Shown: positions 20,698 through 62,610 of the stretch, in pieces | Layout of the letters: every line of letters begins with the position of its first letter | Position numbering within the stretch: the stretch's first letter is position 1 | DNA from: an uncultured Lentisphaerota bacterium | GTDB lineage: Bacteria; Verrucomicrobiota; Lentisphaeria; Oligosphaerales; CAITYL01 | DNA length: 64,000 nucleotides | NCBI GenBank assembly: GCA_903921725.1 | Contig: CAIXRA010000040.1 | Location: forward strand, 1-64,000 | Direction: 5' to 3' | Position numbers and translations under genes: made by a program | The notes under the pieces: model-generated | Databases searched by the model: none | The model's input: only the letters and a program-made list of their open reading frames with translations | Told to the model about the DNA's origin: nothing

Positions 20698-20990
20698 GGT
20701 CGTATTCTCTCCTGGAGTTCCGCGTCCTCCGGACAACCTCTTTCCCTGTCTTGCCCGAAGTCGCAAATTTAGTTGCTCGGCGACGATTTGCGAGAATGCC
20801 TCGACATGTCGGCACGGAGTGTTAGTTTTTGGTTAGAAACAGCCGGGCCACCATGAAAATTCGGTTACCGGAAATATACTATCCCTCATACATCCGGCGC
20901 CTGTCCTGGAATGTCTAATCATCCATTCACCGCATGTTTTCGGCTTGCCGACCCGCCCAACGAACAGCACCCGGACCATAAGGGACAAAC

Positions 20991-21635
20991 ATGAAGTTCA
21001 ACCTGCTGGACATCCTCCTGCCCCGCGAGACCAAGTTCTTCACCTATTTCACCGAACAGGTGGATGTGTTCGTTGAGGGCAGCAAGCTCTTCAAAAAGTT
21101 GGTCACCAACCTCGACATGCTCAGCGAGGCGGAGATTCGGAACAGCCTTGCCGAGATCAAGGAATGCGAACTCCGCGGCGACGCCGTCGAGCAGAAGATC
21201 ATCACGGAGCTGCGCCAGACCTTCATCACGCCGATCGACCGCGAGGACATCCACACGATGGCCATCAACATCGACCGCTGCCTGGACATCCTCAACAGTG
21301 TTTCCCGCAAGATTGATATCTATTCAATCCGCAAGGTGCCCGCCAATGTCCGCCGCTTTGCGGACGTCATTGTTGAAATCGCCGAGGAGATGGGCCGGCT
21401 CGTCAAGGCACTCCGCAACCTCAAGGACGTCTCTGAAGTCTCCAAGAAGATGCATCTGCTGGAGAACAAGGCCGACGAGCTCTTCCACCAGAGCATGGCC
21501 GAGCTCTTCAAGGACAACATGGATCCCATTGATGTGATCCGGCTCAAGGAACTTTACGAACACTTGGAGTCGGTTGTGGACTGCGCCGACTATATCGGCA
21601 AGCTCGTCCGCGGCGTCGCCGTGAAACAGGGGTAA
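20991..21635 (+). CDS. DUF47 family (PhoU-like) phosphate transport accessory protein, copy 1
   Basis: This 214-residue cytosolic all-helical protein belongs to the DUF47/PhoU-like group, whose genes commonly sit beside PiT permeases and are thought to regulate phosphate uptake. The PhoU-like repeats carry acidic E-x-x-x-D stretches (KECELRGDAVEQKI and VDCADYIGKL). AAGGGA precedes the ATG. The PiT permease gene begins 5 bp after its stop, so they form one operon. The protein differs at only 8 of 214 positions from the copy at 22813. Confidence 0.88.
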   Translation: MKFNLLDILLPRETKFFTYFTEQVDVFVEGSKLFKKLVTNLDMLSEAEIRNSLAEIKECELRGDAVEQKIITELRQTFITPIDREDIHTMAINIDRCLDILNSVSRKIDIYSIRKVPANVRRFADVIVEIAEEMGRLVKALRNLKDVSEVSKKMHLLENKADELFHQSMAELFKDNMDPIDVIRLKELYEHLESVVDCADYIGKLVRGVAVKQG

Positions 21636-21640
21636 CCTCC

Positions 21641-22723
21641 ATGCCGGATCAACACATGCTGTTCCTTCTGCTGATCGTGGTCGTGGTCGTGGCGCTGGCC
21701 TTCGATTTCCTCAACGGCTTTCATGACGCAGCCAACGCCATCGCCACCATCGTGGTGACCCGAACGCTCACCCCGGGGCAGGCAGTCATCCTTGCCGGCG
21801 TCGCCAACTTTTTCGGCTATTGCACAATCACGCTTGGGTTTGGCACCGCGATCATGAAGACGGTCGGCAAGGGCGTGGTGGATCTCCAGCACCCGGGGAT
21901 TGCTGGCGCTCACGACCAGATGGTCATCCTGCTCGCCGCCCTGCTCGGTGCCGTGCTGTGGAACATTATCACCTGGCTGCTCGGCCTGCCCACATCCAGC
22001 AGCCACGCGCTCATCGGCGGACTGGCGGGTAGCATCATCGCCGCCGTCGGATTTGGCGGCTTGGGCATGGACAAACTCATCATCTTCGGGCATACGTTCC
22101 ACATGCTCGGCATCTTCAAGGTCATGCTCTTCATCATCATCGCCCCACTGCTGGGACTGCTGGGCGCCGCGCTGTTCACCGTTCTGGTGCTCTGGATCTG
22201 CAAACCGCTGCGGCCGGCCACGGCCAACGCGGCCTTCAAGAAACTCCAGATCGTCTCCGCCACTTGGTACAGCTTCGGCCACGGCATGAACGACGCGCAG
22301 AAGACGATGGCCATCATCATGATGGCGCTCATCGCCTACGACAAAACCAAATACTCACTCTCAACCCCCGAACATTGGGTGGTCCTTTCCTGCTACGCGG
22401 CCATCGGCCTCGGCACCATGTTCGGCGGCTGGCGCATCGTCAAGACCATGGGCACCAAAATCACCAAGATCCGGGCCATGGAAGGGTTCTGCGCGGAGTC
22501 CGCCGCCGGCCTGGTGCTCATGGGAACCGCGCACTGGGGCGTCCCGGTCAGCACCACCCACGTCATCGCCGGCTCCATCATGGGGGTCGGCACCATCGAA
22601 CAGGCCGCCAAGGTGCGCTGGGTCACCGCCCGCAACATCATCTGGGCTTGGATCCTGACCATCCCCCTCACCGCCGCTTTCACCGCGCTGGTGTATCTGG
22701 CCCTCCATGCGGCACTCGCATAA
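21641..22723 (+). CDS. PiT-family inorganic phosphate permease, copy 1
   Basis: This 360-residue inner-membrane transporter of the PiT (PF01384) family imports phosphate with a cation. The two inverted signature repeats are visible: the N-terminal FDFLNGFHDAANAIATIVVT and the central FGHGMNDAQKTM, plus PTSSSHALIGG and VSTTHVIAGSIMG. About ten hydrophobic segments are present. It is the downstream partner of the DUF47 gene 5 bp before it. The second PiT copy at 23454 is clearly related but much more diverged than the accessory proteins are. Confidence 0.92.
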   Translation: MPDQHMLFLLLIVVVVVALAFDFLNGFHDAANAIATIVVTRTLTPGQAVILAGVANFFGYCTITLGFGTAIMKTVGKGVVDLQHPGIAGAHDQMVILLAALLGAVLWNIITWLLGLPTSSSHALIGGLAGSIIAAVGFGGLGMDKLIIFGHTFHMLGIFKVMLFIIIAPLLGLLGAALFTVLVLWICKPLRPATANAAFKKLQIVSATWYSFGHGMNDAQKTMAIIMMALIAYDKTKYSLSTPEHWVVLSCYAAIGLGTMFGGWRIVKTMGTKITKIRAMEGFCAESAAGLVLMGTAHWGVPVSTTHVIAGSIMGVGTIEQAAKVRWVTARNIIWAWILTIPLTAAFTALVYLALHAALA

Positions 22724-22812
22724 ACCCGGCCGGCCCGACATGCAAAACCGGTTCGGCGGACTATCTTATGTCCGTCAAAACGCCGTCCGTTTTTGCCATA
22801 CAGAGGGCCCCC

Positions 22813-23457
22813 ATGAAGCTCAACCTGCTGGACATCCTCCTTCCCCGCGAGACCAAGTTTTTCACCTATTTCACCGAACAGGTGGATGTGTTCGTCGAGG
22901 GCAGCAAGCTCTTCAAAAAGCTGGTCACCAACCTTGACACGCTCAGCGAGGAGGAGATCCGGAACAGCCTTGCCGAGATCAAGGAATGCGAACTCCGCGG
23001 CGACGCCGTCGAGCAGAAGATCATCACGGAGCTGCACCAAACCTTCATCACGCCGATCGACCGCGAGGACATCCACACGATGGCCATCAACATCGACCGC
23101 TGTCTGGACATCCTCAACAGCGTCTCCCGCAAGATTGACATCTATTCAATCCGCAAGGTGCCCGCCAATGTCCGCCGCTTTGCGGACATCATCGTTGAAA
23201 TGGCCGAGGAGATGGGCCGGCTCGTCAAGGCACTCCGCAACCTCAAGGACGTCTCTGAAGTCTCCAAGAAGATGCACCTGCTGGAAAACAAGGCCGACGA
23301 ACTCTTCCACCAGAGCATGGCCGAGCTCTTCAAGGACAACGTGGATCCCATTGATGTGATCCGGCTCAAGGAACTTTACGAGCACTTGGAGTCGGTTGTG
23401 GACTGCTCCGACTATATCGGCAAGCTCGTTCGCGGCGTCGCCGTGAAGCAGGGATGA
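22813..23457 (+). CDS. DUF47 family (PhoU-like) accessory protein, copy 2
   Basis: This 214-residue near-duplicate of the product at 20991 has 8 substitutions, mostly conservative (F3L, I-to-M, V-to-I, M-to-V). The ATG at 22813 is placed by alignment with copy 1. Its stop overlaps the start of the second PiT gene (ATGA), so the pair is coupled. The near-identity contrasts with the divergence of the two permeases and suggests recent duplication or gene conversion of this gene alone. Confidence 0.88.
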   Translation: MKLNLLDILLPRETKFFTYFTEQVDVFVEGSKLFKKLVTNLDTLSEEEIRNSLAEIKECELRGDAVEQKIITELHQTFITPIDREDIHTMAINIDRCLDILNSVSRKIDIYSIRKVPANVRRFADIIVEMAEEMGRLVKALRNLKDVSEVSKKMHLLENKADELFHQSMAELFKDNVDPIDVIRLKELYEHLESVVDCSDYIGKLVRGVAVKQG

Positions 23458-24620
23458 TCCCAAACATGCCATTTGCCGCCATTCATGTTGACCAGCACAC
23501 GCTCTTGATTCTGGTTGTCACGGTCATCGTCATCGCCTTGATCTTCGACTTCCTCAACGGCTTCCACGATGCGGCGAATGCCATCGCCACCATCGTCATC
23601 ACCCGGACGCTGACCCCCGGCCAGGCGGTCATCATGGCGGGCGCGGCCGAATTCCTCGGCTACTTCATGGGCGGCGCCGCCGTCGCCAGGATGATCAGCT
23701 CGGGCATCGTCAACATTGACAAGCTCGCCGAGCCCGACGCCAAGCTCATCATGGTTTTGGCCGCCCTCCTCGGAGCCGTCACCTGGAACGTTCTCACCTG
23801 GCTTTGGGGGCTGCCCAGCTCCAGCAGCCACGCGCTCATCGGCGGGCTGATTGGCAGCATGCTCGCCGCCGTCGGCTACAACGGGCTGGCCCTCAGCGAC
23901 TCGATGGTGTTCTTCGACAAGTCCTGCCTCCAGTTCACCCTCCATCTCCCCTGGATGCTCCCCGCCAAACTGATCCTGATCTGCGCCTTCATTTTTATTG
24001 CGCCGCTGCTGGGCATGTTCTTCGCGGCCGTCGTCACGCTGGGCGTCATCTGGATCTTCCGGAAAACGCGGCCGGCCACCGCCGGCGCGATCTTCAAGAA
24101 GCTGCAGCTCATCTCCGCCGCCTGGTACTGCACCGGCCACGGGCGCAATGACGCGCAAAAGACCATGGGCGTCATCGCACTCGCCATGCTGGCCGGCGGC
24201 CTCACGACCGCCAAAGTCACCAAGGACAACCCCGTCCCCCTCGAAAACTGGGTCGTTCTCGCCTGCTACGTCGCCATTGCCCTCGGCACCATGTTTGGCG
24301 GCTGGCGCATCGTGAAAACCATGGGGACCAAGATCACAAAGATTCGCCCGATGGAAGGATTCTGTGCCGAAACATCCGCCGGCTTGGTGCTCATGGGCAC
24401 TGCCCACTTCGGCATGCCCTGCTCCACCACCCATGTCATCTCCGGCGCCATCATGGGCGTGGGCGCCGTCGAGCAGGCATCCAAGGTCCGCTGGAACACC
24501 GCACGCACCATCATCTGGGCTTGGATTCTGACCATTCCGCTGACCGCCGTCTACACGGCCATCGTCTACTGGGTCATCAATGCCATCTACGTGGCCATCC
24601 GCACACCCGCAGCAGGCTGA
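23454..24620 (+). CDS. PiT-family inorganic phosphate permease, copy 2
   Basis: This 388-residue membrane protein is homologous to copy 1 (21641), with the same signatures: FDFLNGFHDAANAIATIVIT, PSSSSHALIGG, TGHGRNDAQKTM and CSTTHVISGAIMG. In the central motif GMN becomes GRN. Compared with copy 1 it carries an extra hydrophobic/loop segment after the first half (SMVFFDKSCLQFTLHL) and a longer C-terminus. The ATG at 23454 overlaps the preceding stop; an ATG at 23466 is an alternative. Having two permease/accessory pairs may give different affinity or expression, which is inference. Confidence 0.9.
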   Translation: MIPNMPFAAIHVDQHTLLILVVTVIVIALIFDFLNGFHDAANAIATIVITRTLTPGQAVIMAGAAEFLGYFMGGAAVARMISSGIVNIDKLAEPDAKLIMVLAALLGAVTWNVLTWLWGLPSSSSHALIGGLIGSMLAAVGYNGLALSDSMVFFDKSCLQFTLHLPWMLPAKLILICAFIFIAPLLGMFFAAVVTLGVIWIFRKTRPATAGAIFKKLQLISAAWYCTGHGRNDAQKTMGVIALAMLAGGLTTAKVTKDNPVPLENWVVLACYVAIALGTMFGGWRIVKTMGTKITKIRPMEGFCAETSAGLVLMGTAHFGMPCSTTHVISGAIMGVGAVEQASKVRWNTARTIIWAWILTIPLTAVYTAIVYWVINAIYVAIRTPAAG

Positions 24621-26329: not shown

Positions 26330-29053
26330 TCAAGGGCCGAGCCAAAACTGATCGGGTGCCATTTCGGACAGGCGGGTTCCCCCATACAGGGCCGCTGATG
26401 TAATCCACCCGATCCCCAGGGTAAGCTGGCTACCCCCCCGCCAGGATCCGGGTTGTCCGCCGACATAGGTGCAGTTCGTCTGGTTATAATGTTCGGCCTG
26501 AATGCCGGGAACCTTGCCGAACATGGCCCCCGGCCGCGAGATCGTCTGGGTGCAGGCCTCAAACATAACGCGGCCGATCTGCTTGTAACGGTCGTCACCG
26601 GTAAGCAGGCCCAATCGATAGTAGTCGGGGGCCATGTAATAACCAAAGCAATCGATCTCCTGGTTTTGCGTTGAAATGAACGTCCAGCCAATGGTGTTGA
26701 CGTGGTCGTGCAGGAGAGGGCTTTGCGGCCTGAAGTACAGGCCGACATCATGAAAGTACATCCAGGTCAGGGTCAGGTCTGCGGCGTCTTTGGCCATCTG
26801 GAGGAATTTCGGCTCGAGCGTGGCCGCATAGGTTTCCAATGCCGCCCCCATCATGCCCCAGGCGGCCTCCTTGTCCTCCGAACCGGCATCAAGCGTCGCC
26901 CCCCACGGCGGTGCCGCCAGTGTTTCGCCGAATTCGCGCCAATAGGCATCCATCGCCTCGGCCGCCGCTGCGCGATACCGGGCATCACCGGTCATGATCG
27001 CCAGCTTGGCGAGTGGGACGACACAAAAGGCGCCGGCGGCGGAAAGCGATGAGACTGGAGGCTCGCCGGCCGCCGGCCAGTCGGCCGCTTTGCCATCGAC
27101 GGTCCAGCCTTTGGGAAACAACCCCTTGTGCTTCGGCGAACGCAGCAGGAATTCGCCGCCCCTTTTCAGGGCCGCCAACCATTCGTCCGCTTCCGGAAGT
27201 TTCATCCGCTGGCCAAGCTCGGACAAGCTGGCTAAATGAGTGAGGTTTTCCGCGTATTGCCGGCTGGCAAGCCCGCCCCATTCACGGCTGTCGCCAGCGT
27301 ACTCGCCGTAGTAAAGGCCGTCGACACCCGCGTGGGCATTCCGGACAAAGAACTGAACCGCCGACACCGCTTCCTGTTTCGCGGTTTCATCGCCCGTGCG
27401 CTCCGCCTGGCACAGGGTGCCATAGGCGATTGCCAAGCCGCCGCCGATCCAGGCATAGCCAAAATGGTTGCTGCCCGGCAGCATCCCATATCCCGCCGCC
27501 CCGGAAGCGGGAATTTCCGCCGGCGGCAGCAAATGGGTGATCCGCGGTTCTTTCCCCATCAATCCCCACGGTCCGAAAAGCTTGCGGGTGAACTCGATTT
27601 TGCCGCCTTGCTCGGCCAGCCCGATCTTCTCTCCGGCCGCCCCGGGTACCTTGGCAAACAGCCGCATCCCCCACGATTCGCCGCCGGGGGCGAGAATCTT
27701 GCGACCTTCCGCGGTCACCGGCGATTCGTTGTTTTTGTTGATCGCGGCGATTACGCGGTCGACGGTCTTGGTGAACCAGGCGTCAGCATCGGCAATCTCA
27801 ATGCCGATCACCTTGCCGGCGGCCCCCTCGGGGGCGGAATACGAATCCGGCTTGCCGGTCGCATGAAACTTGTAGATATCCTTCTTCCCGTCCGGCCTGA
27901 CAATGATCACGGCGTCGCCATCGACGATCTGCACGTTCCCGAAACGGACAAAGCCTGCCGCGTGGCCAGGCTTCAGTACGCCCTCCGGCTTGACGTACCG
28001 GGTCCGGCCATGATTGGCAATTAGAGTCATCGCTTTGGCAAACGGCACGTGCGGCGTCTCAATCGGCCGGAAGACATCATAGCTTTTCCACAGCGTTTCA
28101 CGGAAGGCATAACCGGTCTTGATCCCGGCCCCCAAGTCGAGATAGAGCGTCTTCGTGAAAACGGCCGGCCCCTGTACATCCAGATAGGCGTCGTCATAAG
28201 GGTCGAAGCCATTCAGGTGCCCATAGACCTGGCTTTTCTTGCCATTGGTCGCCACCGGACCGGACAGACTCAGCAGATCGACACAGCCCTGGCCGTATTC
28301 CAACCCCAGACTCCACCAGTGATCGTCGCCCTTGTGGCCCTGCTGGAGCTTCGATGGCTTGGCAAGCAGCGACCCATAGGTCCGGAGGCCGTTTACCGCC
28401 GATTCGATGTTGACCATCGGAACCGGCAGGCGATGTTCTTCGTACAGCCCAAGACCGCCAGGCACCGTCGAAATTCGGGTCCCGACCGTCGTTGAATTGG
28501 GATTGTTGTTGTAGAGCACGCCGGGCATGAGCAGCCGTTGATCGGTTCCCAGGGGCAGGCGGATGCGGCTTTCCAGCGTGATCTTCGGCTGGGTGCCAGG
28601 ACCGGAGTGGGCAAACGAGCGATCAATCCGCACCATCCCATGCTCCATTGAATAGACATCGGCGAACCACCAGGGCTGCCCGGCAATGTCGGCCGAAGCC
28701 GAGGCACGCACGCGGCCATCAGACAGCGGTTCGATTTTCTGGGCCTTGACGTGGTGCGGGACGGCGTACCATGAATCAATCCAATCAGAATACACACTCC
28801 ATACCCGCCCCTCCGGGAAGGCGGCGGCCTGTTGCCAGGAACCGGCGCACGGAAGCTCGAAAACAACATCGTAACCGGCCTGTCGGCTGCCGACAAAATG
28901 AACCCGCGGCGCGTCCGCCCCGCTTCCGAATACAAACCCGTCGGCAACCTCTTTCACGGATGGACCGACGGGCGCGGCCGACGCCGCGGCCGCAAGCAGC
29001 TGTACCACCAGTACGGCAACCGTGCCCTTCAGGACCGTGGCTTTGCTCATCAT
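26330..29053 (-). CDS. Large secreted glycosidase-like protein
   Basis: This protein of about 907 residues has a signal peptide (GTVAVLVVQLLAAAASAAP). The first 500 residues look like beta-sandwich domains. The C-terminal 400 residues are helix-rich with regular Trp/Tyr/Gly motifs (YGYAWIGGG-like, HYNQTNCTYVGGQPGSWRGG), reminiscent of an alpha/alpha toroid glycosidase. I cannot name the family. Its start (TGATG) overlaps the stop of the upstream GH43 gene, so the two are translationally coupled and probably act on one polysaccharide. A fragment of a paralogue survives at 53940-54120. Confidence 0.7.
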   Translation of the reverse strand: MMSKATVLKGTVAVLVVQLLAAAASAAPVGPSVKEVADGFVFGSGADAPRVHFVGSRQAGYDVVFELPCAGSWQQAAAFPEGRVWSVYSDWIDSWYAVPHHVKAQKIEPLSDGRVRASASADIAGQPWWFADVYSMEHGMVRIDRSFAHSGPGTQPKITLESRIRLPLGTDQRLLMPGVLYNNNPNSTTVGTRISTVPGGLGLYEEHRLPVPMVNIESAVNGLRTYGSLLAKPSKLQQGHKGDDHWWSLGLEYGQGCVDLLSLSGPVATNGKKSQVYGHLNGFDPYDDAYLDVQGPAVFTKTLYLDLGAGIKTGYAFRETLWKSYDVFRPIETPHVPFAKAMTLIANHGRTRYVKPEGVLKPGHAAGFVRFGNVQIVDGDAVIIVRPDGKKDIYKFHATGKPDSYSAPEGAAGKVIGIEIADADAWFTKTVDRVIAAINKNNESPVTAEGRKILAPGGESWGMRLFAKVPGAAGEKIGLAEQGGKIEFTRKLFGPWGLMGKEPRITHLLPPAEIPASGAAGYGMLPGSNHFGYAWIGGGLAIAYGTLCQAERTGDETAKQEAVSAVQFFVRNAHAGVDGLYYGEYAGDSREWGGLASRQYAENLTHLASLSELGQRMKLPEADEWLAALKRGGEFLLRSPKHKGLFPKGWTVDGKAADWPAAGEPPVSSLSAAGAFCVVPLAKLAIMTGDARYRAAAAEAMDAYWREFGETLAAPPWGATLDAGSEDKEAAWGMMGAALETYAATLEPKFLQMAKDAADLTLTWMYFHDVGLYFRPQSPLLHDHVNTIGWTFISTQNQEIDCFGYYMAPDYYRLGLLTGDDRYKQIGRVMFEACTQTISRPGAMFGKVPGIQAEHYNQTNCTYVGGQPGSWRGGSQLTLGIGWITSAALYGGTRLSEMAPDQFWLGP

Positions 29054-30183
29054 CAAAACGCCTCCGACATCTGTTTTTTTGAACCGCCCTCAGGCTTGGG
29101 CGTTGCCTTGATTGTGCCGGCGGCGGCCTTGGTAGACGTCGGCTGGCGCTGTTGCGGATGGACGATGCCATCAGCGCCGATCTCGACCGGCAGGATGCCG
29201 GGGCGTTCGCGCCATGGGGCACCGCCATCGTGCCCGAAATAGGTGGCCCACCACTGCTTGTTCTTGTCCTGGAAGAAATTGTTGTGTCCGCAGTAGGGCA
29301 GCGCCTCGTAGCGGGCGCTGTAAGGTCCGTAAATGTTCCGGGAAGTGGCGATGGCACAACTGTAACGGCCTTCAAATTGTTCGGAAGCGCACCAATAATA
29401 AAGTCCGCCGGCCTTGAACATGGAAATGCCCTCATAGCCGGCATGGAACTGATCCTGGCAGACCGTCGGGCACGCGGGGCCGTGGTGTTTGGCATTTGTG
29501 TCGTCAACGCCGGTCTTCAGCCAGCGGCAGGGTTCGGCCAGTCCGCTCATGTCGGGCTTCATCTTCGCAATCTTGCTGTTGTGCCAGAGGAAATAAACCG
29601 TGCCGTCGTCGTCCTGAAACAGCGAGGCGTCAATCTCGTCGCCGAGCCGCTCGTCAGGCTGCACGTCCACATAGGGGCCTTCCGGTTTTCCCGTGCTGCT
29701 CTTGAGCAGACCGCATCCGCTGTTCTTGGGATTCCAGTGGTCCCAGCCGGGAAAACTGTAGGTGAGCCAGAACGTGCCGTTGATGAAATGGACCTCGGGC
29801 GCCCACAGCGGGCATTTCTCGGCCATGTAGGGCTTGTGCCACGGGCTGGCCCCGGGTTTCCAGACGATGCCGAGCGGCTCCCATGCAGCATGGTCACGGT
29901 CGCGCGACTTCCACAGCCGGATGCCGTCCGGAGGATTGCTCGTCCCCGTCATATACCATGTCCCATCGGGACCGCTACAGATTGAGGTGTCGCGCAGATA
30001 GGTGTCCGTCAGCCTGCGCAGACCGGGCGGCGCGCCGACCACAGCGGAAGGGAGTTTGCCTGCCGACGGCGGGCCGGCGGCGGGCATATCTGGGGCGGCC
30101 GGCGCCGCGGTTGCGGGCAGCACCCCCGCCATCCAGCAGAAAACGAAAGTCATCATCGTGCGGAGAACTCGCATGACACTCAT
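29053..30183 (-). CDS. Secreted glycoside hydrolase family 43-like protein
   Basis: This product of about 376 residues starts at the ATG at 30183, which follows a strong AGGAGGAGGG. It has a signal peptide (VLRTMMTFVFCWMAGVLPATA) and a five-bladed beta-propeller typical of GH43. Blade motifs include YLRDTSICSGPDGTWYMTGT (catalytic-base Asp region), CPLWAPEVHFINGTFWLTYS and GDEIDASLFQDDDGTVYFLW. The family mainly cleaves arabinans, xylans and galactans. The downstream glycosidase-like gene is coupled through TGATG. A promoter candidate lies at 30335-30362. Confidence 0.82.
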   Translation of the reverse strand: MSVMRVLRTMMTFVFCWMAGVLPATAAPAAPDMPAAGPPSAGKLPSAVVGAPPGLRRLTDTYLRDTSICSGPDGTWYMTGTSNPPDGIRLWKSRDRDHAAWEPLGIVWKPGASPWHKPYMAEKCPLWAPEVHFINGTFWLTYSFPGWDHWNPKNSGCGLLKSSTGKPEGPYVDVQPDERLGDEIDASLFQDDDGTVYFLWHNSKIAKMKPDMSGLAEPCRWLKTGVDDTNAKHHGPACPTVCQDQFHAGYEGISMFKAGGLYYWCASEQFEGRYSCAIATSRNIYGPYSARYEALPYCGHNNFFQDKNKQWWATYFGHDGGAPWRERPGILPVEIGADGIVHPQQRQPTSTKAAAGTIKATPKPEGGSKKQMSEAF

Positions 30184-30334
30184 CCCTCCTCCTCCTGCCG
30201 TCACCCCATCATCCGGTCACGCGCAATGCAGTCCAGAGGGTGGAGCGCAACGGCCGTTTCATTCATCTACCTACAAGCCCCACCCGCCGGAACAGCAGGA
30301 GAACGCGAGAGCCGTTGAATAAGCCTACGCTAAT

Positions 30335-30362: not shown

Positions 30363-30480
30363 TGCTCAAACCGTCAAAAGGTTTGCAAATGCTCAACGCA
30401 CTCAAGAAGATAACCGAATCACTCGTTGTTTCGCCATGCATCAAGAAGACCTATGCACATCATCATTACGGATATAGCCA

Positions 30481-31332
30481 TTGGCGGAAACGGCGTTGGG
30501 CGGCGCCTGGGCGGGTAGTGTACCGATCGTTCTGCAAAAAAATGATGCCGTGGTATTCCCTGGTTTCCTACCACAGAAACAGAATTGCGTGCTGGCGGCG
30601 GGCGACACGGCCTGCGGGTTCGGCAACACGGCGATGGTGCTGGCGGAAAAGAAGTACATCCCGCGGGTGTTTGCGGCGGTGGTCCGCGCCGTCAGCGCCG
30701 TCCGTTCGCTGGTCGCCTACGAATGCGGTGCGGTCGGCCCCGGCAAGGATTGCGGCTACGAGAACGTGTACCTCAAGGCGATCACCGGCTTCCCGATGGC
30801 GCTGGAGGGGAAGAGCGCGGCCTGCGCGCACCTGAGCCCCGTCGGCAACATCGCGGCGGCGGTCTGCGACACCTGGAGCAACGAGTCGGTGCAGAACATC
30901 AAGTTGCTGGCGGCAATGGCACCGACCTGCTACGTCGAGCAGCTCATCTACGACTGCCGCCTGATGAACCGCGCGTCGCAGGACGGCCGCAAAGGGGCTC
31001 TGCAGCTGCGTGACTGGCTCGTGGGCAGTGATGCCGGGCTCGACCCCCAGGCCTTCATTCTGTCGCCGGAGTCGGCCATGGAGATTGCGCGGACGATCGT
31101 GGCCGCCCCCAACCACTACCAAGCCGGCGTTGCCGTGGCGCGCACGGCAATCGGACTGTTGCGGAATGCACACGCACAGGGGCGCCTGGCCCTGCCTGCG
31201 CGGGAGGTCGAGTGGATGGACACCATGCAACGCGCGGTCGATGCGATGCCGACCACCGAGGACAAGTTCATCGAGGAAATGCTGGGGGTCGTCGACACCG
31301 GCAAGTTCGTCCTTTCCGAGTACGGACTGTAA
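30481..31332 (+). pseudogene. mtaB: 5'-truncated methanol:corrinoid methyltransferase (mtaB type)
   Basis: From about residue 35 of the open frame to its end (283 residues) the sequence matches the C-terminal part of MtaB, the zinc enzyme that moves the methanol methyl group to a corrinoid protein. Landmarks are AAGDTACGFGNTAM, VAYECGAVGPGKDCGYEN, ITGFPMALEGKSAACAH and DTWSNESVQ. The two cysteine zinc ligands (in GDTAC and GPGKDC) are present. Intact MtaB is about 460 residues, so roughly the first 200, including the glutamate zinc ligand and much of the TIM barrel, are missing. The upstream sequence does not encode them in any frame. I therefore call it a remnant. A functional short form is unlikely. 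Confidence 0.75.
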
Positions 31333-31474
31333 TCCGCGCGGATCCGGAACGCGACGATGTAGCCATTAGGGCGTCACCCATAGTGCGCGCCCAAGGCGCC
31401 AGCGGAACCCGGCGTGCGCCTCTGCGCCAATCCACCGCCACGCCGTCCGGGTGCAGCCGGCCGGCCCTTCCGCT

Positions 31475-32443
31475 TTAGGACGGTATCCGGTTTGCCCGCG
31501 CCATGTGCCGGTAGCGGGCGGGCGAGACGCCGTAGGCCTGGCGGAAGCACTTGTGGAAATGGGAAATGCTTCGGAAGCCGAGTCCGCCGGCGACGACCAG
31601 AATCTTGTCCGGACTCTCCACCAGCGTCTTGGCGGCGCGCCGGATGCGAATGGCGTTGACGTAATCGGTAGGGGTGGTGTTGAGGTGATGGCGGAAGCGC
31701 TTGCAGATGTAGGCGTGGCTCCGCCCGCTGAGTTTGGGCAGGGCCTGGATGATCCGGGAGAGGTCGGGCGCCGTGTCGATCGCGCGACAGAGGGAGGCCA
31801 GCCAACCCGGGGACGACGCGGTTGCGCCAACTCCGGAATTGCGCAGCGGCGGCTGGGCGACGGTCCAGATCCGGGACAGAAGCGCCACCATCATGACCCG
31901 GCTTTCCGCCGCGGCATGGGCGGGGAGCGTGACCTGCTGGCTGTCGAGCCGGAGAAGCTGCAGGGAAAGCTCGTCCGCATCCGTCCGCGGGATTTCCGCA
32001 TGCAGCGGGAGCCCCTTCCCCCCATAGCCGAGCCACTCGTCCCAGTCGTGGAAATCCAGGAAGCGGAGCGTGTCATGAAAAAGTTCCGCGGCAATGGACA
32101 AGTCCACCAGCTCCACCGTGCGTTCGCCGCCGCCTTGCGGCAGGCTGAAGTGATGCCGGTCCTGCGGCCGGACGAGCACAATCGACCCCGCCTCCAGCAA
32201 CTGCTCGCGGCCGTTGATCCCGTGGATCAGTTGCCCGCGCAGTACCAGCATGACCTCGAAGAATTCATGGCGGTGGTCGCCGCTGCGCAGGTCGTGGCCG
32301 AACGCATGGAAATGCACGTTTGCCGCCTGGGCCACGCTGGCCGAATCGGTCTGCCCGCTGCGCAGCACGTGGAATGAAATGCTGATGCCGGTCTTTGCGT
32401 TGAGGTGGTCGGCCGAGCGTAGCAGAAGAGGCGTGGATGCCAT
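31475..32443 (-). CDS. AraC-family transcriptional regulator
   Basis: This 322-residue regulator has an N-terminal cupin-like sensing domain (HEFFEVMLVLRGQL, LEAGSIVLVRPQDRHHF) and a C-terminal AraC/XylS double helix-turn-helix (ISHFHKCFRQAYGVSPARYR). The ATG at 32443 is chosen because a well-matched promoter lies at 32480-32507, and a longer frame to 32491 would overlap it. It lies between the truncated mtaB and the intact mtaC, divergent from mtaC with about 200 bp between starts, so it most likely controls the methyltransferase genes and possibly itself. The inducer is unknown. Confidence 0.85.
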   Translation of the reverse strand: MASTPLLLRSADHLNAKTGISISFHVLRSGQTDSASVAQAANVHFHAFGHDLRSGDHRHEFFEVMLVLRGQLIHGINGREQLLEAGSIVLVRPQDRHHFSLPQGGGERTVELVDLSIAAELFHDTLRFLDFHDWDEWLGYGGKGLPLHAEIPRTDADELSLQLLRLDSQQVTLPAHAAAESRVMMVALLSRIWTVAQPPLRNSGVGATASSPGWLASLCRAIDTAPDLSRIIQALPKLSGRSHAYICKRFRHHLNTTPTDYVNAIRIRRAAKTLVESPDKILVVAGGLGFRSISHFHKCFRQAYGVSPARYRHMARANRIPS

Positions 32444-32479
32444 GTCTTTATCCTTAGTTTCCGTTGAACATGCGAGGAA

Positions 32480-32507
32480 AATATAGAGCATGTTTTGTGA
32501 CAGTCAA
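32480..32507 (-). promoter_or_regulatory. Promoter of the AraC regulator gene
   Basis: On the minus strand TTGACT (32507-32502), 16 bp and TATATT (32485-32480) form a good sigma70-type promoter about 37 bp upstream of the regulator ATG. On the plus strand a TATAAT (32511-32516) that could serve mtaC begins 4 bp away but has no matching -35, which would suit activator-dependent transcription. Confidence 0.6.
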
Positions 32508-32649
32508 CAGTATAATATTCGCATCAAATCGGGCTGGATCCGGGTTGTCAAATGGAAAACAGAGCATAGTTTAATCCAGTACACTCATCGGCCGCATGTG
32601 TATTTTGACGATTCCAAACGAAAGCCGAAAACCACCAGGAGGAGAAGCC

Positions 32650-33285
32650 GTGGCGCAAATTGAAGAACTCTACAATGCCATCCTCAAGGGCAACCGCAAG
32701 ATTGTCCAGGAGCAGGTACAGGCGGCCGTTGCGGGCGGGATGTCGCCGCAGGAGATTCTGTTCGAGTCGATGGTTCCGGCCATACGCGAAATCGGCGACC
32801 GCTTCAGCCGCGGACAGGCGTTCGTTCCGGAAATGCTGATCGGGGCGCGGGCCATGCAGGCCGGCGTCCAGATCCTGCAGCCGCTGATGGACAAGGCCGG
32901 CATGAAGTCGCTGGGCAAGGTTGCGATTGGGACCGTGAAGGGCGATCTGCACGACATCGGCAAGAACCTGGTGGCCATGATGGTCAAGAGCGCCGGCTAC
33001 GAGGTGATCGACCTCGGCGTCGACGTGCCAGTGGAAAAATTCGAGGACTGCGTCAAGAACAGCAACGTTGACGTCCTGATGCTGTCCGCGCTGTTAACCA
33101 CGACCATGCCCTACATGAAAACCGTCGTCGACCACCTCAAGGGGCAGGGGCTCAAATGCCGGATATTGATCGGCGGCGCCCCCGTCACACAGGCCTACTG
33201 CAACCAGATTGGCGCCGACGGCTATTCACCCGACGCCAACCAGGCCCTCGGGCTGGTCGAGGGGTTTTTTCAAAAAGCCTCCTGA
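32650..33285 (+). CDS. mtaC: Corrinoid protein of a methyltransferase system (mtaC type)
   Basis: This 211-residue protein carries a cobalamin cofactor and shuttles methyl groups between methyltransferases. The N-terminal four-helix cap (about 5-85) precedes the B12-binding Rossmann domain, which has the base-off signature GDLHDIGKNLV. His101 is the lower cobalt ligand. SALLTTTM and GGAPV contact the corrin. The start is a GTG preceded by AGGAGGAG, and the frame upstream lacks a better site. The family includes MtaC, MtbC and related O-demethylase proteins. The mtaC assignment rests on the adjacent mtaB remnant and the mtaA-like gene, so substrate specificity is inferred. A reductive-activator gene follows 39 bp downstream. 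Confidence 0.88.
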   Translation: MAQIEELYNAILKGNRKIVQEQVQAAVAGGMSPQEILFESMVPAIREIGDRFSRGQAFVPEMLIGARAMQAGVQILQPLMDKAGMKSLGKVAIGTVKGDLHDIGKNLVAMMVKSAGYEVIDLGVDVPVEKFEDCVKNSNVDVLMLSALLTTTMPYMKTVVDHLKGQGLKCRILIGGAPVTQAYCNQIGADGYSPDANQALGLVEGFFQKAS

Positions 33286-33324
33286 GGCCGCGCGACGCAA
33301 GCAGAGAGGAAGGAGCAACCGCCG

Positions 33325-34944
33325 TTGCGGATACGCTTTCATATCGCCAGTCAAATTCTGGAGGCTGAAGCCGCACCCGGCGACGGCCTTCTGGAACTGG
33401 CCGGACGCGCGGGGTTCCAGATCAACCTGCCGTGCGGAAAAGCCGGCCGCTGCGGTTCCTGCCGCGTCAAGGTGAGCGGGGGGACCGTCCTGGAAGACGG
33501 CCGCCGGATCGTGGCGGAGACCCCGATGTGGGTTCGAAGCTGTCACACCTCGGTCGTTGAAGGCGACCTGCGGGTGGAGGTCCCCCTGTCGGCCGTCGTG
33601 CGGCCGAAGGACGGCGCGCCGGTGGAAGACGATGCGTCGAACCTGTTTCCCGACGGCCTGCCGATGACGGTTCCGATGGGCGTTCCGGCGGTGGGGGACC
33701 CGCCCAGCTTCGGAATCGCAGCCGATCTTGGCACGACCGGAGTGACAGTCGCCTTGCTCGACCTCCGCTCCGGAAAACTGCGGGGAACCGCCTCAGGCTG
33801 GAACCGACAGCTGGCGGTCGCGGACAATGTCCTCTCCAGAATCGCCTACACGGCCGGATCGCCGGAACGCGTGGCGGAGCTCCAGAAGATGGCCGTCGTC
33901 CAATCCATCAACCCGCTGACAGAACGGCTTTGCGCGACGCATGGCGTGGGACTCCGGCAAATCAAAGCGTGCGTCATCGCCGGCAACACCGTGATGGCGC
34001 ATCTGGCAGCCGGTGAAGCGGTCGGGGCGATCGGGCAATACCCGTTCACCCCGCCCTATCTGGAACTGCCGTCCCGGACCGCCGGCGAGCTCGGACTGGC
34101 GGCCTCGCCGGAGGCAGATGTTTGGTTTTGCCCCGCCATTTCAGGCTACCTCGGGGGGGACATCTCCGCCGGTTTTCTGGATTGCGCGCTGGACGAGGCG
34201 CACGGATGCATCCTGTTCATTGACGCCGGCACCAACGCCGAAATCCTGCTGAGGCTCCCTGATGGAACCATCCACGCCTGCTCGACTCCCGCAGGCCCGG
34301 CGCTGGAGGGGTGCGGCCTGCGCTGCGGATCCAGCGCCGTCGCCGGCGCCGTCAACCACCTCCTGCCGGGGCATGATGGCAGCCAGTGGGAACTCTCCGT
34401 CATCGGCGACGCGCCGCCCCAGTCGATCTGCGCGTCCGCCTACATCGAACTGATGGCCGAAATCCGCCGCCGCGGCTGGGTGGATTCGTTCGGACGGCTG
34501 CAGGCGGACCGCATTCCGCCCGGCGTCGGGTGCCACGGCGAAGCGGCGTCCGCGAACGGGATACGGGTTGGAGCCGACCTGCTGGTCGAGGAGGCGGACA
34601 TCGCGCTGATTCTCCAGGCAAAGGCCGCCGTCCAGGCCGGGATCGCCGTGTTGCTGGACGTTGCCGGCATCACCGCCGGGCAGATCGACGAAGTCCTTCT
34701 GGCCGGCGCCCTCGGCGAGCATCTCGACTTGGCGGCGGCGATCCGCATCGGGCTTTTCCCGGATCTTCCGGCCGCCCGATACCGCCGGGTCGGCAATGCC
34801 AGCCTGAAAGGGGCTGTCCGCTGCCTCCTCGATGCCCCGGCGGCACGGGGACTGCGCGAACGGGTCCGGCGGGTGAACGTGGTCGAGCTGAAGACACAGG
34901 ACTCCTTCAACGATCTCTACATCGACGGGCTTTCCCTGCCATGA
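33325..34944 (+). CDS. Ferredoxin-ASKHA corrinoid reductive activator (RACo-like)
   Basis: This 539-residue protein probably re-reduces inactive Co(II) corrinoid to Co(I) with ATP, as RACo-type activators do. An N-terminal plant-type 2Fe-2S domain has Cys37, Cys43, Cys46 and Cys73 (PCGKAGRCGSC and RSCHT). A linker leads into the DUF4445 / ASKHA ATPase fold (FGIAADLGTTGVTVALLDL, LFIDAGTNAEILL, LAGALGEHLDLAAAIRIGLF). The start is a TTG with AAGGAG about 11 bases upstream. The stop overlaps the next ATG (ATGA), indicating coupling. It lies downstream of mtaC in the same operon. Confidence 0.85.
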   Translation: MRIRFHIASQILEAEAAPGDGLLELAGRAGFQINLPCGKAGRCGSCRVKVSGGTVLEDGRRIVAETPMWVRSCHTSVVEGDLRVEVPLSAVVRPKDGAPVEDDASNLFPDGLPMTVPMGVPAVGDPPSFGIAADLGTTGVTVALLDLRSGKLRGTASGWNRQLAVADNVLSRIAYTAGSPERVAELQKMAVVQSINPLTERLCATHGVGLRQIKACVIAGNTVMAHLAAGEAVGAIGQYPFTPPYLELPSRTAGELGLAASPEADVWFCPAISGYLGGDISAGFLDCALDEAHGCILFIDAGTNAEILLRLPDGTIHACSTPAGPALEGCGLRCGSSAVAGAVNHLLPGHDGSQWELSVIGDAPPQSICASAYIELMAEIRRRGWVDSFGRLQADRIPPGVGCHGEAASANGIRVGADLLVEEADIALILQAKAAVQAGIAVLLDVAGITAGQIDEVLLAGALGEHLDLAAAIRIGLFPDLPAARYRRVGNASLKGAVRCLLDAPAARGLRERVRRVNVVELKTQDSFNDLYIDGLSLP

Positions 34945-35615
34945 AGATCCCGTCGCCCACGCCGGCCCAGGCCGAACAAATTTACAGCGACGCCCTCGAC
35001 CGGTTCTGGATGATCCGGCGCAAGAGGCATGAGACCGCGGAAAATTCCGGTTCCTTTGCCGAATTTGAAGAGGCTGTCCGCGAGGCGGAACCGGTGGTGC
35101 GCGCCGGCTTCAGGCCGACCTTTGCCGCCGCCGTCGTCTCGCCCGTCCATCTCCGGGAAACCACGCTCTCCCTGCCCAACGGACTGACCCTCCCCATCGC
35201 CGCGCGGGTCACCGCCGGCATCCGGGCGGGCGGAACGCCCCTGGTCGTCGCCTACGGCCTCACGACCGGCCTTTCCTCCGCCACGCTTCTCGCCGGTCTT
35301 GGAAACGACTACATCGCCCAGCAGTTCGCCCACCTGATTGCCGTCGATCTTGTCAGCGCCTGCGGCCGCCACCTCCACCGGTTGCTCCGGCACTCCTTTC
35401 CGGAAAAGGCCATGCTCCGCATCGCCGTTGCCACCGGCGGCGCCCCGGCCGGCCGCTCCGCCATGCATGCCGCGTGGAACCCACACGCGACGGCAGCCCT
35501 GCTCCCGCTTCTCCCGCCCGGCGCGCTGAAAATCACCGCCACCGAAGCGGGTGCCCTGCACCCCAACTATTCCGTCGTGGGACTGGCCGTCGGGCTGCCC
35601 GCTCCGCCCCCATGA
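34941..35615 (+). CDS. Small protein resembling the MetH reactivation domain
   Basis: This 224-residue cytosolic protein starts within the stop of the activator gene. The N-terminal 60 residues are helical (DRFWMIRRKRHET). The central part (PLVVAYGLTTGL, then DYIAQQFAHLIAVDLVSACGRHLHRLL) and the end (LLPLLPPGALKITATEAGALHPNYSVVGLAVG) follow the rhythm of the AdoMet-binding activation domain of B12-dependent methionine synthase, stand-alone versions of which occur in corrinoid methyltransferase clusters. The classic RxSPGYG loop is not clear, so the assignment is tentative. The context supports a role in corrinoid repair. A MITE-like element follows. Confidence 0.45.
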   Translation: MKIPSPTPAQAEQIYSDALDRFWMIRRKRHETAENSGSFAEFEEAVREAEPVVRAGFRPTFAAAVVSPVHLRETTLSLPNGLTLPIAARVTAGIRAGGTPLVVAYGLTTGLSSATLLAGLGNDYIAQQFAHLIAVDLVSACGRHLHRLLRHSFPEKAMLRIAVATGGAPAGRSAMHAAWNPHATAALLPLLPPGALKITATEAGALHPNYSVVGLAVGLPAPPP

Positions 35616-35625
35616 TCCGGACAAA

Positions 35626-35892
35626 GTGCTTATCCGCGAATTAAAAATACCGCCTGTCGCGGCGGAAACGGGCCAGTTGCAAGGCACGAGGATTGAGAAT
35701 ATCGGGATATGTGATTGACGAGTAACGCTGCAAATGGCCCGTTTCCGCCGCGACCCGGAGGGCTGCCGTCCTTTTGGGCCGCTTTTTCCAATGTTCAGTC
35801 GTTACATGTCCCGACATGCGCCTCCTTCACATCGAAAAAATCGACTCAAAATGATTGGCAGCAGACGCTATTTTTAATTCACGGATAAGCAC
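35626..35892. mobile_element. MITE-like element with nested inverted repeats
   Basis: The 24-base ends (35626-35649 and 35869-35892) are inverted repeats matching at 23 of 24 positions, starting GTGCTTATCCG. Inside, a 27-base pair of arms (35656-35682 and 35728-35754) matches inversely at 25 of 27. The 267-bp element has no coding capacity, and both ends abut a possible AAA target duplication. This is the architecture of a non-autonomous miniature inverted-repeat element. It occupies almost all of the 310-bp gap before the mtaA-like gene and could affect that gene's expression through its long hairpin. No parent transposase with these ends is in the window. Confidence 0.6.
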
Positions 35893-35925
35893 AAAATCAA
35901 AATAACAGAAACGAAGCTCTCACCA

Positions 35926-36978
35926 ATGGACAACGCCTTCTATCTGGATCTCGCCGGCAAGCATGGCGGCATGCCGGTCGGAACCGACCTGGTCCTGCAT
36001 GAACAGCCCGACCCCCAGGCCGTCAAGATGGACGGGGGCCGCCTCGGCGCCGTCATCGTCGAGGCAGCTTCCCGTTACCGGACCCCCGTTGCCATGCCGC
36101 TCATGGACCTCATGCTTGAAAAACGCCACATGCTGCGGCTGCTCGGCATCCCCGAGGATCAGATCCCGACCTGGCATTTTCCGGATGTCCCGACCGCCGG
36201 GGCGCGCGCCAGGATCCGCGAAGGGCTCACCGCCGCGCTGGATCCGCAGCTGCAGGCGCATGTGGACTCCATCTCCCATGTAGCCCGCACGACCAGCCTC
36301 CATGCGGTGGGCATGAGCATCGGCCCCTTCTCGCTTGCCACCAAGCTCCTCGGCGACCCCATCACCCCGGTCTATCTCAGCGGCATGGGGATGACTGCCA
36401 ACGACGAACCGGACGTCGCCCGGCTCGACGCCGTCCTCGAGCTCGCCTTCCAGACCGTCATGCGCTCACTGGAGGCCCAGATCGCCGCCGGGGCCCAGTC
36501 CATCTTCATCGCCGAACCCGCCGGCAACAAGGTGTTCTTCTCGCCCAACCAGCTCGAGGCCGGGGCCGACATCTTCGAGCGCTACGTCATCCAGTGGAAC
36601 CGCCGGATCGCCGAACGCCTCCGCGCCGCCGGCGTCCACCTTCTCTTCCATTGCTGCGGGGAACTGGTGGATCCGATGGTGCAGGCGTATGGCCGCCTCG
36701 GCGCCTCGCTCATCAGCCTCGGCAGCTCCCGCGACCTCGTCCACGATGCCGGACTGCTGCCCGAAAACATCGTGCTCTACGGCAATCTGCCATCAAAAAA
36801 ATTCTACTCCGACGAGCTTATTTCGGCCGATGAGGTCCGCCTCCAGTCCGCCGGGCTCCGCAGCCGTATGCGCGCATGCGGACACCCGTTCATCCTCGGC
36901 ACCGAGTGCGACGTCCTCAGCGTCCCCGGCTGCGAGGCCCAGCTCAAGGCCAAGCTGGAGGCCATCGTCAACACCTGA
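35926..36978 (+). CDS. Uroporphyrinogen-decarboxylase-family methyltransferase (mtaA type)
   Basis: This 350-residue TIM-barrel protein belongs to the URO-D superfamily, whose methyltransferase members (MtaA, MtbA, CmuA) move methyl groups from corrinoid proteins to a thiol or tetrahydrofolate acceptor. The zinc motif HxC...C is present: His242 and Cys244 in FHCCGEL and Cys328 in LGTECDVLSVPG. It lacks a decarboxylase-like N-terminus. Being downstream of mtaC and its activator, it most likely completes the methyl-transfer chain. Whether the acceptor is tetrahydrofolate or another molecule cannot be read from sequence. The ATG has no strong ribosome site, and the MITE-like element ends about 33 bp before it. 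Confidence 0.8.
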   Translation: MDNAFYLDLAGKHGGMPVGTDLVLHEQPDPQAVKMDGGRLGAVIVEAASRYRTPVAMPLMDLMLEKRHMLRLLGIPEDQIPTWHFPDVPTAGARARIREGLTAALDPQLQAHVDSISHVARTTSLHAVGMSIGPFSLATKLLGDPITPVYLSGMGMTANDEPDVARLDAVLELAFQTVMRSLEAQIAAGAQSIFIAEPAGNKVFFSPNQLEAGADIFERYVIQWNRRIAERLRAAGVHLLFHCCGELVDPMVQAYGRLGASLISLGSSRDLVHDAGLLPENIVLYGNLPSKKFYSDELISADEVRLQSAGLRSRMRACGHPFILGTECDVLSVPGCEAQLKAKLEAIVNT

Positions 36979-37184
36979 ACCGCACACGATGCGCCGACCT
37001 CTGCTACCGCACCGGCGGCAGCGTGTTCGGCCTGGTTCAGCAGGCGGCGGTGGGGTCGCCGCAGTAGATTATGGATTATTCATCCCGTTGGATACGGCTC
37101 TTCAAGCGCCATGCCTTGGAATCGAAAACGTCCGACGGAAATAGGCAACCAGGTAAAAACGCAACCATAGGGAAACAGACCGCC

Positions 37185-38426
37185 ATGAAGCTCCTTCCGT
37201 CCGGATTTGCCGCCGTGTTCCTTTTTGCTACCGCCGCCGTATGCGCGCCGCCGTCCACCCCGCCGGTTTCCGGGGATGCCGTGGTCGCGCCGCAGAAGAT
37301 GCCGCAGCCGACGGCGGAGCCGGCACCCGCCGCCGCGACCACCCTCTATTCAAGCGTCCGCTCGTTCGGCGCAACGGGCGACGGCATCGCCGACGACACG
37401 CCCGCCTTCACCCGGGCCGCCGAGGACGCGCTCAAGAACGGGCGTACGCTTTTCATCCCCTCCGGCGACTACAAGCTGACCGGCCGGATCGTCTGCCACC
37501 GCTGGACGAAAGAGTTCGGGCGCGGTAGCCTGACGGTGCTCGGGGAAAACGTGCGCTTCACCCGCCTGCACTTTTACCCGCAGGCCGCCAACGACGTCCT
37601 GTTCGAGCACACCGAATGGTTCGTGGTGAAGAACCTGACGGTGACCGCGGAGGTGCCGGACGACCAGCCGCACCGCGGCATCGCCTTTTCCACGCCGCTG
37701 AATGCGCAGAGCGCGTACAGCTCCTACGAGAACATCCAGATCTCCGGGAGGTTCAAGTACGCCTGGTTCAACCGTTTCACGATGCATGACCAGTGGCGGA
37801 ACGTCTCGTCCAAGGGCCCCCTCTGCCACTTCATGTTCGCGCATTCCGCCAGCCACGACACGCCGCTGGGCCCTTCCAAAACGGGCTGGAACAGCGGCTC
37901 GGAAGGCTGGTTCCACAACCTCGGCACGCTCGACGGCGTCGTCTGCAACGGCGGCGAAGTGGGGGTGGCCGGCGCGGTGATGCAGTTCAATTTTGTGCAG
38001 TTCACCGCGCAGGGGCAGACGACCGGCGGCGGCGCCGGAAACCGCATCCTGCCGAAGGGCGACCCCGGCACGGGGATCTATCTGGTGGGGCGCGACAACA
38101 CGGCGGGCGGCGCCCTGAGGGGCAACACCATCGGCGCCTATTACACGGAGGTGACCGAACGTCCGCTCTACGCACGCAACGGCGGCGTGATCCGGGGCTC
38201 GAGTGCGTTTTTCCAGGGGCGGGCGGCCTCTCCGTTCCCCGCCGCCATCGTGCTCGACAACACGCGCCTCGTCTTCGGCACCGTCACGGTGCGGATGCCG
38301 TTCACCAACCTCTTCGCCGGCGAAAACAAGGCGTCCTGCGGCGTCGAACTGCTCGACGCCCCGCATGCCAAGGCCAAGACCGACGCCACAAGCCGGCTGA
38401 AGGTCAACACCGCCATGGGGGAATGA
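37185..38426 (+). CDS. Secreted right-handed beta-helix protein (pectin-lyase fold)
   Basis: This 413-residue protein starts at the ATG at 37185; the signal peptide (SGFAAVFLFATAAVCA) fits this start, not an upstream one at 37071. After a Pro/Ala-rich linker comes the hallmark FGATGDGIADDTPAFTRAAEDA followed by TLFIPSGDYKLTG. These open the Pectate_lyase_3 / polygalacturonase-like beta-helix used by many polysaccharide-active enzymes and by phage tail spikes. No catalytic residues can be fixed. It lies downstream of the methyl-transfer genes, which is suggestive because pectin breakdown releases methanol. Confidence 0.72.
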   Translation: MKLLPSGFAAVFLFATAAVCAPPSTPPVSGDAVVAPQKMPQPTAEPAPAAATTLYSSVRSFGATGDGIADDTPAFTRAAEDALKNGRTLFIPSGDYKLTGRIVCHRWTKEFGRGSLTVLGENVRFTRLHFYPQAANDVLFEHTEWFVVKNLTVTAEVPDDQPHRGIAFSTPLNAQSAYSSYENIQISGRFKYAWFNRFTMHDQWRNVSSKGPLCHFMFAHSASHDTPLGPSKTGWNSGSEGWFHNLGTLDGVVCNGGEVGVAGAVMQFNFVQFTAQGQTTGGGAGNRILPKGDPGTGIYLVGRDNTAGGALRGNTIGAYYTEVTERPLYARNGGVIRGSSAFFQGRAASPFPAAIVLDNTRLVFGTVTVRMPFTNLFAGENKASCGVELLDAPHAKAKTDATSRLKVNTAMGE

Positions 38427-38818: not shown

Positions 38819-38965
38819 TCAGTGACACCGTATGAATCCAGGGCGTAACCGAACGAGTTTCTCCTCCACGCCATGCTCCTCCACCGCCAATCTGGAAACC
38901 AAATGCGGCGGAACCAAGTCGCAGATTTGCTTCAGCACGGTAAATTGATGGCGGGTCGAATTCAT
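38819..38965 (-). pseudogene. Truncated IS4-type transposase
   Basis: From the ATG at 38965 the frame reads 48 codons and then stops. It begins MNSTRHQFTVLKQICDL, nearly identical to the transposase start at the left window edge, and continues with VPPHLVSRLAVEEHG, which resembles the N-terminal DUF4372 region of IS4-family transposases. The rest of a transposase (several hundred codons with the DDE core) is absent, so this is a remnant. AGGAGG remains about 7 bases before the ATG. Confidence 0.65.
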
Positions 38966-39051
38966 GGCCGTGCCTCCTTTTGTGGTAAAAAGAAAGTACG
39001 CCATGACCGGCCCTTTTCTACTCAAAACTCAATCCGCGCAGGATGACTGTG
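38915..39051. repeat. IS end, copy 2 of a long direct repeat
   Basis: This matches 1-137 in the same orientation: 114 of 118 bases identical over 38915-39032 without gaps, then a shared GGATGACTGTG ending at 39051. It covers the 5' end of the truncated transposase and its leader. Confidence 0.75.
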
Positions 39052-61750: not shown

Positions 61751-61928
61751 GGGAAGAGAACGGGAACACGGAACCGCACGCCTCGCAGGGGAAGATAGAG
61801 CTGGAGAACAGTTCAGACGAATTAGCCCAAGCGGTGACAGGCTGTGCCGACGCCCCGCCCGAACAAAATGGATTGAAAGATATAGACCTATTGATACATT
61901 ACACCCGCCAGCAGCCAGTCTGTCTTCC

Positions 61929-62080
61929 TTCCGTCCTTCCGTTCTTCCGTTCTTCCGTCCTTCCGTCCTTCCGTCCTTCCGTCCTTCCGTCCTTCCGTCC
62001 TTCCGTCCTTCCGTCCTTCCGTCCTTCCGTCCTTCCGTCCTTCCGTTCTTCCGTTCTTCCGTACTTCCGTTCTTCCGTAC
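61929..62080. repeat. Tandem octamer array, 19 units of TTCCGTNC
   Basis: Nineteen uninterrupted octamers fill 152 bp: a central block of 11 identical TTCCGTCC units (61953-62040), flanked by variants with T or A at position 7. The array ends 35 bp before the S23 gene. It could expand or contract by slippage. The open frame through it, with an 8-residue repeat, is a by-product of the 8-bp period. Confidence 0.9.
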
Positions 62081-62115
62081 ATTCCGCCTCCCCTGCACCT
62101 CAAAGGAGATTCGCC

Positions 62116-62610
62116 ATGCCCGGCAGCAAAACGTTTGAGGAACTCCCCGTGTGGCAGGCCGCCCGCGAACTTGTCCGGCGCATTTATGCACTCACCCGCC
62201 AGACGGCTTCCGCCCGTGACCGCGGCTTCTGCGACCAGATTCAGCGCGCCGCAATTTCCGTCACCAACAACATTGCAGAAGGGCACGAGCGAGGCACCAC
62301 CGTCGAGCTGGTCGTCTTCCTTTTCTATGCCAAGGGCAGCGCTGGCGAAGTCCGATCCATGCTTTGGAACGCGGAGGATCTCGGTTATCTTCTGGCGGTG
62401 GATGCAGAAGGCCTGCGCGGCCTCGCCCGTAATGTCAGCCACCAGCTCCGCGGTTGGATTGCCTCCATGCAGACCCCCGACTTCAATCCCGGCCCCAAAT
62501 ATCACAAGGAGCCGCCGGCCGGCCTTCGCCGATGGGAGCTCTACCTGGAACAGCAGGGACTCGTCCGTCTGCCCAACGGCCGTTACATTCAGGAATCCGG
62601 AACGGAATAA
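62116..62610 (+). CDS. Four-helix-bundle protein (S23 / 23S intervening-sequence family)
   Basis: This 164-residue protein has AAAGGAG about 7 bases before the ATG. It follows the S23 pattern: FEELPVWQAARELVRRIY, then FCDQIQRAAISVTNNIAEGHERG, then FYAKGSAGEVRSMLWNAEDLGYL and a final helix. A C-terminal tail of about 35 residues (KYHKEPPAGLRRWELYLEQQG) is extra. Family members bind nucleic acid or partner proteins (the Avd accessory protein is related), but no retroelement or rRNA is nearby. The stop codon lies within a downstream octamer array, and a longer array precedes the gene. Confidence 0.85.
   Translation: MPGSKTFEELPVWQAARELVRRIYALTRQTASARDRGFCDQIQRAAISVTNNIAEGHERGTTVELVVFLFYAKGSAGEVRSMLWNAEDLGYLLAVDAEGLRGLARNVSHQLRGWIASMQTPDFNPGPKYHKEPPAGLRRWELYLEQQGLVRLPNGRYIQESGTE

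Follow-up and report, generated by a model that had tools for sequence, protein, structure and literature searches.

Here, we report a locus for corrinoid methyl transfer, of the MtaB/MtaC/URO-D type, in which mtaB has probably become a 5′-truncated pseudogene in recent times, a reading to which we give a probability of about 0.72. The locus lies within a stretch of 64,000 nucleotides (the window, i.e., the whole stretch of DNA that was analysed) from an uncultured Lentisphaerota bacterium, the assembly of which has 3.18 Mb in 82 contigs and is 94.65% complete. Most likely, a fresh mtaB pseudogene stands here beside an orphaned system, and the URO-D enzyme of that system may serve another donor. 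The features of the locus, in window coordinates, are the following:

30453–30515, plus strand: MHIIITDIAIGGNGVGRRLGG followed by a stop, probably the relict start of a gene of rumA/rlmD type
30481–31332, plus strand: truncated mtaB open reading frame, 283 aa, TTG start, no stop codon within
30481–30579, plus strand: leader of the truncated frame, 33 codons without MtaB likeness, outside the PF12176 match that begins at frame residue 33
30580–31332, plus strand: 3′ part of mtaB, residues ~207–460 (PF12176, E 9e-93; 2i2x_A, E 5e-50)
31475–32491, minus strand: AraC-type regulator with a cupin sensor domain (PF12833, PF00165, PF02311, PF07883)
32650–33285, plus strand: mtaC-like corrinoid protein (PF02607, PF02310), GTG start behind AGGAGG
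33325–34944, plus strand: RACo-type corrinoid reductive activator with an N-terminal 2Fe-2S domain (PF14574, PF17651, PF00111)
34941–35615, plus strand: 224-aa protein, possibly MetH-activation-domain-like, with a colinear 27% match to the genome's own MetH
35624–35892, no strand assigned: MITE-like repeat with 31-nt inverted ends (arms 35626–35656 and 35862–35892), between the 224-aa and URO-D genes
35926–36978, plus strand: URO-D-superfamily methyltransferase (PF01208) with His242, Cys244, and Cys328

An earlier note on this DNA had described an mtaB without about its first 200 residues, including the Glu zinc ligand, and the alignment of the frame to full-length MtaB confirms it: only the C-terminal half (residues ~207–460) aligns. 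The Pfam match covers profile positions 207–460 of 460, and MtaB of Methanosarcina barkeri (PDB ID: 2i2x) is aligned over residues 208–444 of its chain A. Counted along this latter alignment, Cys220 and Cys269 are kept in the fragment, whereas Glu164 falls in the missing part, nothing being kept before residue ~207; these three residues are zinc ligands of the M. barkeri enzyme in its known structure. Judged from the solved MtaB structure, the fragment would not be expected to act as a methanol methyltransferase, as it has neither Glu164 nor the initial part of the TIM barrel. No recognisable mtaB promoter or mtaB start is left at the truncated frame.

The frames of the corrinoid protein, the RACo-type activator, and the URO-D methyltransferase are open, as had been stated; the placing of mtaB in one operon with them, however, does not hold. 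The minus-strand araC gene stands between mtaB and mtaC, convergent with the former and divergent from the latter, and therefore mtaB was a separate transcription unit. MtaC carries the corrinoid motif DxHxxG as GDLHDIG, and the NCBIfam models nearest to it are of the MtgC/pyl-corrinoid type, all below cut-off. The nearest mtaC (60% identical) is that of L050, directly behind an mtaB that is intact and belongs to the clade of the fragment. Activator, MtaC, and URO-D are all somewhat diverged from their MtaB-linked homologues, the activator differing at 27 of the 112 positions conserved among the RACo genes of MtaB loci (the others differ at 4 at most); this divergence of the activator gene casts some doubt on the operon as a set of partners purely for MtaB.

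The 224-aa protein had been called MetH-reactivation-like. Its frame is open and it matches the activation domain of the genome's MetH colinearly over 148 aa (27%, E 7.5e-4, a value computed against this single MetH sequence), but no Pfam match at E ≤ 5 (PF02965 included), no NCBIfam match, and no credible PDB match was obtained, and on its sequence the protein is only weakly MetH-activation-like. Its single-sequence structure model (pLDDT 39) was unusable. One weak match was found in 388 Verrucomicrobiota genomes, with no counterpart gene in the MtaB loci of relatives. The MITE-like repeat that follows has inner inverted arms too; the genome has about 15 more copies, full or partial, the best of them 96% identical, and several are located at contig ends.

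For the URO-D protein of the locus, the MtbA and MtaA/CmuA models outscore HemE. His242, Cys244, and Cys328 are invariant in 14 aligned relatives, and by motif they may be assigned as zinc ligands; such a His-Cys-Cys site would suit an S- or Se-methyl substrate. The predicted model (pLDDT 92) points, in a fold search, to the URO-D/MtaA fold (HemE- and MtaA-like), and the PDB profile search with this protein gave a weak HemE match only. The soluble coenzyme M methyltransferase MtaA (PDB ID: 4ay7, 4ay8) resembles the modeled enzyme in its fold (TM 0.61–0.67) and in the HxC…C motif, but the window URO-D is only ~14–15% identical to it, and coenzyme M would not be expected as its acceptor.

The donor-specific subunit was the one lost, beside intact partners, as the earlier note had it. 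That these partners belong with MtaB is borne out by a set of 80 MtaB loci from GTDB genomes, in which the cassette mtaC-urod-mtaB recurs. A window-type URO-D gene accompanies mtaB in 14 of the 80, often in this very order; 49 loci have mtaC and 25 have an activator. Bacterial MtaB-MtaC-URO-D(-RACo) loci of Verrucomicrobiota and others (L028, L032, L036, L045, L049, L058, L064, L099, and L100) share the gene families of the window locus, and their URO-D proteins are ~48–53% identical to that of the window; unlike in the window, mtaB is intact there, usually on the same strand and adjoining mtaC, no 224-aa gene was found, and the window activator falls in a different subgroup. Wherever a locus is not cut by a contig end, mtaB is full length, typically ~460–480 aa, with the exception of L081, the only short one among such loci, which looks broken. 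The N-terminal half is at least partly found in 78 of the 80 loci, and the remaining two (L070 and L087) both run off the contig end.

Two other Lentisphaerota genomes have a broken mtaB. In L081 (2953–3876), the gene is 5′-truncated with the break at about residue 151 and adjoins a divergent gyrA, no mtaC being found on that contig; in L006 (1483–1947, G006:C49), an internally deleted remnant is located downstream of cysS, and this genome also has an intact mtaB (L004). So breakage of mtaB recurs in the phylum. Nothing on truncation was found in the literature on MtaB in Verrucomicrobiota or Lentisphaerota. The same-family genomes G001 and G002 have no MtaB and have kept the URO-D gene (54–58%), which adjoins a divergent PocR-AraC regulator of a type that also adjoins many MtaB operons. 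The URO-D gene can thus persist without mtaB. At L122 (9539–10594) and L123 (9795–10856), a URO-D gene of window type stands with a PocR-AraC regulator divergent from it, and mtaB is absent; in L123, a BadF/BcrA-type ATPase gene comes after the URO-D gene.

It had also been proposed that an mtaB elsewhere might serve the operon. The genome search lends this no support: neither a second MtaB nor an orphan MtaB N-terminal half was found on any contig of the assembly, the best matches to the latter being noise (E 0.14 and 0.19). An intact mtaB could be in the ~5% of the genome missing from the assembly. MTTB was considered as a replacement for MtaB and rejected, as it is absent from the assembly, and with neither an intact MtaB nor MTTB there, no intact donor-specific MtxB of a three-component system was found, a role that a URO-D protein may fill. 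Only two B12-binding_2 proteins are encoded in the genome, MetH and the locus MtaC. Pterin-binding (PF00809) proteins are likewise two, MetH and a 379-aa open frame taken as FolP; therefore, the assembly holds no methyl-corrinoid:H4folate methyltransferase of the MtrH or AcsE type. URO-D proteins are two as well, one at the locus and one on contig C5 (L124 4065–5135, G000:C5). The MtaA/CmuA models score best for this second URO-D, whose relatives (38–42%) include the URO-D genes that lie close to mtaB in L039, L065, and L104. No separate HemE was seen, the URO-D family search of the genome giving no copy beyond these two.

What the remaining genes do is a further matter. The suggestion that the operon has been repurposed for a different methyl donor is possible, albeit somewhat doubtful to us: the URO-D enzyme would be the donor-side methyltransferase, MtaC the carrier, the donor an S-, Se-, or O-methyl compound, and mtaB dispensable. 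This is compatible with mtaB being a pseudogene. The invariant His242, Cys244, and Cys328 argue for it, His-Cys-Cys being described as an S-methyltransferase signature (Kountz and Balskus, PMC10418091), and so do the open frames, the divergence of activator, MtaC, and URO-D, and the two same-family genomes that keep URO-D beside a PocR-AraC regulator. The mlp clusters of the same study have in common with the window locus a corrinoid protein, a Ram/RACE-type activator, a His-Cys-Cys URO-D, and the absence of an H4folate methylase, and clusters composed in this way are described as having S/Se-methyl roles (PMC10418091). In a type 1 mlp cluster, however, the URO-D proteins number two or more, Mlp2 and Mlp3 being the minimum (PMC10418091), and the window locus has one URO-D gene. 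Furthermore, URO-D is coupled to mtaB in relatives and may be an acceptor-side enzyme only; open frames prove nothing if the mtaB loss is very recent; and no substrate gene or activity is known to go with it. Going one step further, one may speculate that a Lentisphaerota lineage sheds the methanol-specific MtaB and keeps MtaC, the activator, and the His-Cys-Cys URO-D for folate-independent S-/Se-methyl transfer, which we consider improbable; if true, the cassette would change its donor through subunit loss.

With respect to the date of the truncation, the fragment is unchanged at all 80 positions that are conserved in ≥98% of the intact MtaB homologues compared (n = 77). A Poisson estimate, which assumes that 73% of changes alter a residue and that these 80 conserved codons have drifted neutrally since the truncation, gives an upper bound of ~0.017 neutral changes/site. 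Together with the absence of a stop codon, the unchanged positions therefore indicate either a recent truncation (roughly <2% neutral change) or an artefact. In the tree, the fragment is placed within a mostly Lentisphaerota MtaB clade (97/88), with an end branch of 0.35 that is within the range of its neighbours.

The junction itself bears on the cause. The piece MHIIITDIAIGGNGVGRRLGG is, within the 5 kb around it, the best tblastn match to RumA (L109) of this same genome, starting from Met1 (62% over 21 aa, E 7e-5), with an alignment score of 73 vs ≤42 in 2000 shuffles. Please note that this piece, initially spotted by eye, is 21 residues only; it has no Pfam match, and rumA was not found adjoining mtaB in relatives. 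We consider 30453–30515 likely to be what is left of the start of a rumA-type gene; a deletion that fused such a gene with mtaB would fit this. Repeat recombination as the cause was rejected, since the DNA at the junction occurs only once in the genome and is not spanned by any repeat. Tetranucleotide composition is equal to the left and right of the junction, and a chimeric origin from two organisms was rejected on this ground.

Given the good preservation of the fragment, a very recent deletion is difficult to tell apart from an error in assembly or binning at the junction. If the contig were misjoined near 30,575, or strains were mixed, a real full-length mtaB would exist here; the fragment is conserved like working genes, the genome is a draft, and the junction stretch has a lower G+C (0.43–0.62 vs ~0.67) and no counterpart elsewhere in the genome, all of which would be in line with such an error. 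We nevertheless regard it as unlikely, since the flanks share their composition, a 137-nt repeat has a copy on either side, the two being 93% identical (window 1–137 and 38915–39051), a misjoin within the genome should have left an orphan MtaB N-terminus on another contig, where none was found, and two further Lentisphaerota genomes also have a broken mtaB. A function of the 283-aa protein, be it as a short MtaB or as a remnant in regulation or scaffolding, is very improbable: its open frame, its retention of every tested conserved residue, and a codon-position G+C resembling that of the neighbouring genes speak for it, but recent truncation accounts for the conservation, Glu164 and the first barrel part are missing, the TTG start lies in an unrelated stretch with no mtaB promoter or start left, and a functional short MtaB family, which the earlier note had named among the findings that would overturn its reading, was rejected, as essentially every relative is full length and no intact short homologue occurs in the 80 loci.

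Our preferred reading, a recent 5′ truncation of mtaB, would then run as follows. Ancestrally, methanol or a similar compound would have been the donor from which MtaB methylated Co(I)-MtaC; the part of the URO-D enzyme would have been to hand on the methyl group or to bring in a second donor. A deletion, we infer, took the promoter, the start, and the first ~207 codons of mtaB, the remainder of which was probably fused to the relict start of the rumA-like gene. The genes mtaC, activator, and urod, still open, remain behind their own AraC regulator, with URO-D as the sole methyltransferase left at the locus.

The locus is flanked by GH43 and rhamnogalacturonase/pectate-lyase-like genes (29053–30204 and 37071–38426). 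Methanol is released by pectin breakdown, and a link of these flanking genes to the former mtaB through pectin methanol is possible. Elsewhere in the window, 8-nt tandem repeat arrays of the TTCCGTCC type are found at 61886–62117 and 62752–62936, and long direct repeats (75–96% identical, ~1.8 kb apart) at 20990–24537, suggesting tandemly duplicated genes.

Gene decay is well illustrated by this locus, which is otherwise ordinary biology. The gene mtaB has been proposed earlier as a marker for anaerobic methanol use; as the window locus, L006, and L081 indicate, a partial mtaB match in a draft genome need not signal such use. Loss of the donor subunit is repeated within one phylum, and whether a methyl-transfer module switches its donor may be tested on those related genomes that have retained a window-type URO-D and no mtaB.
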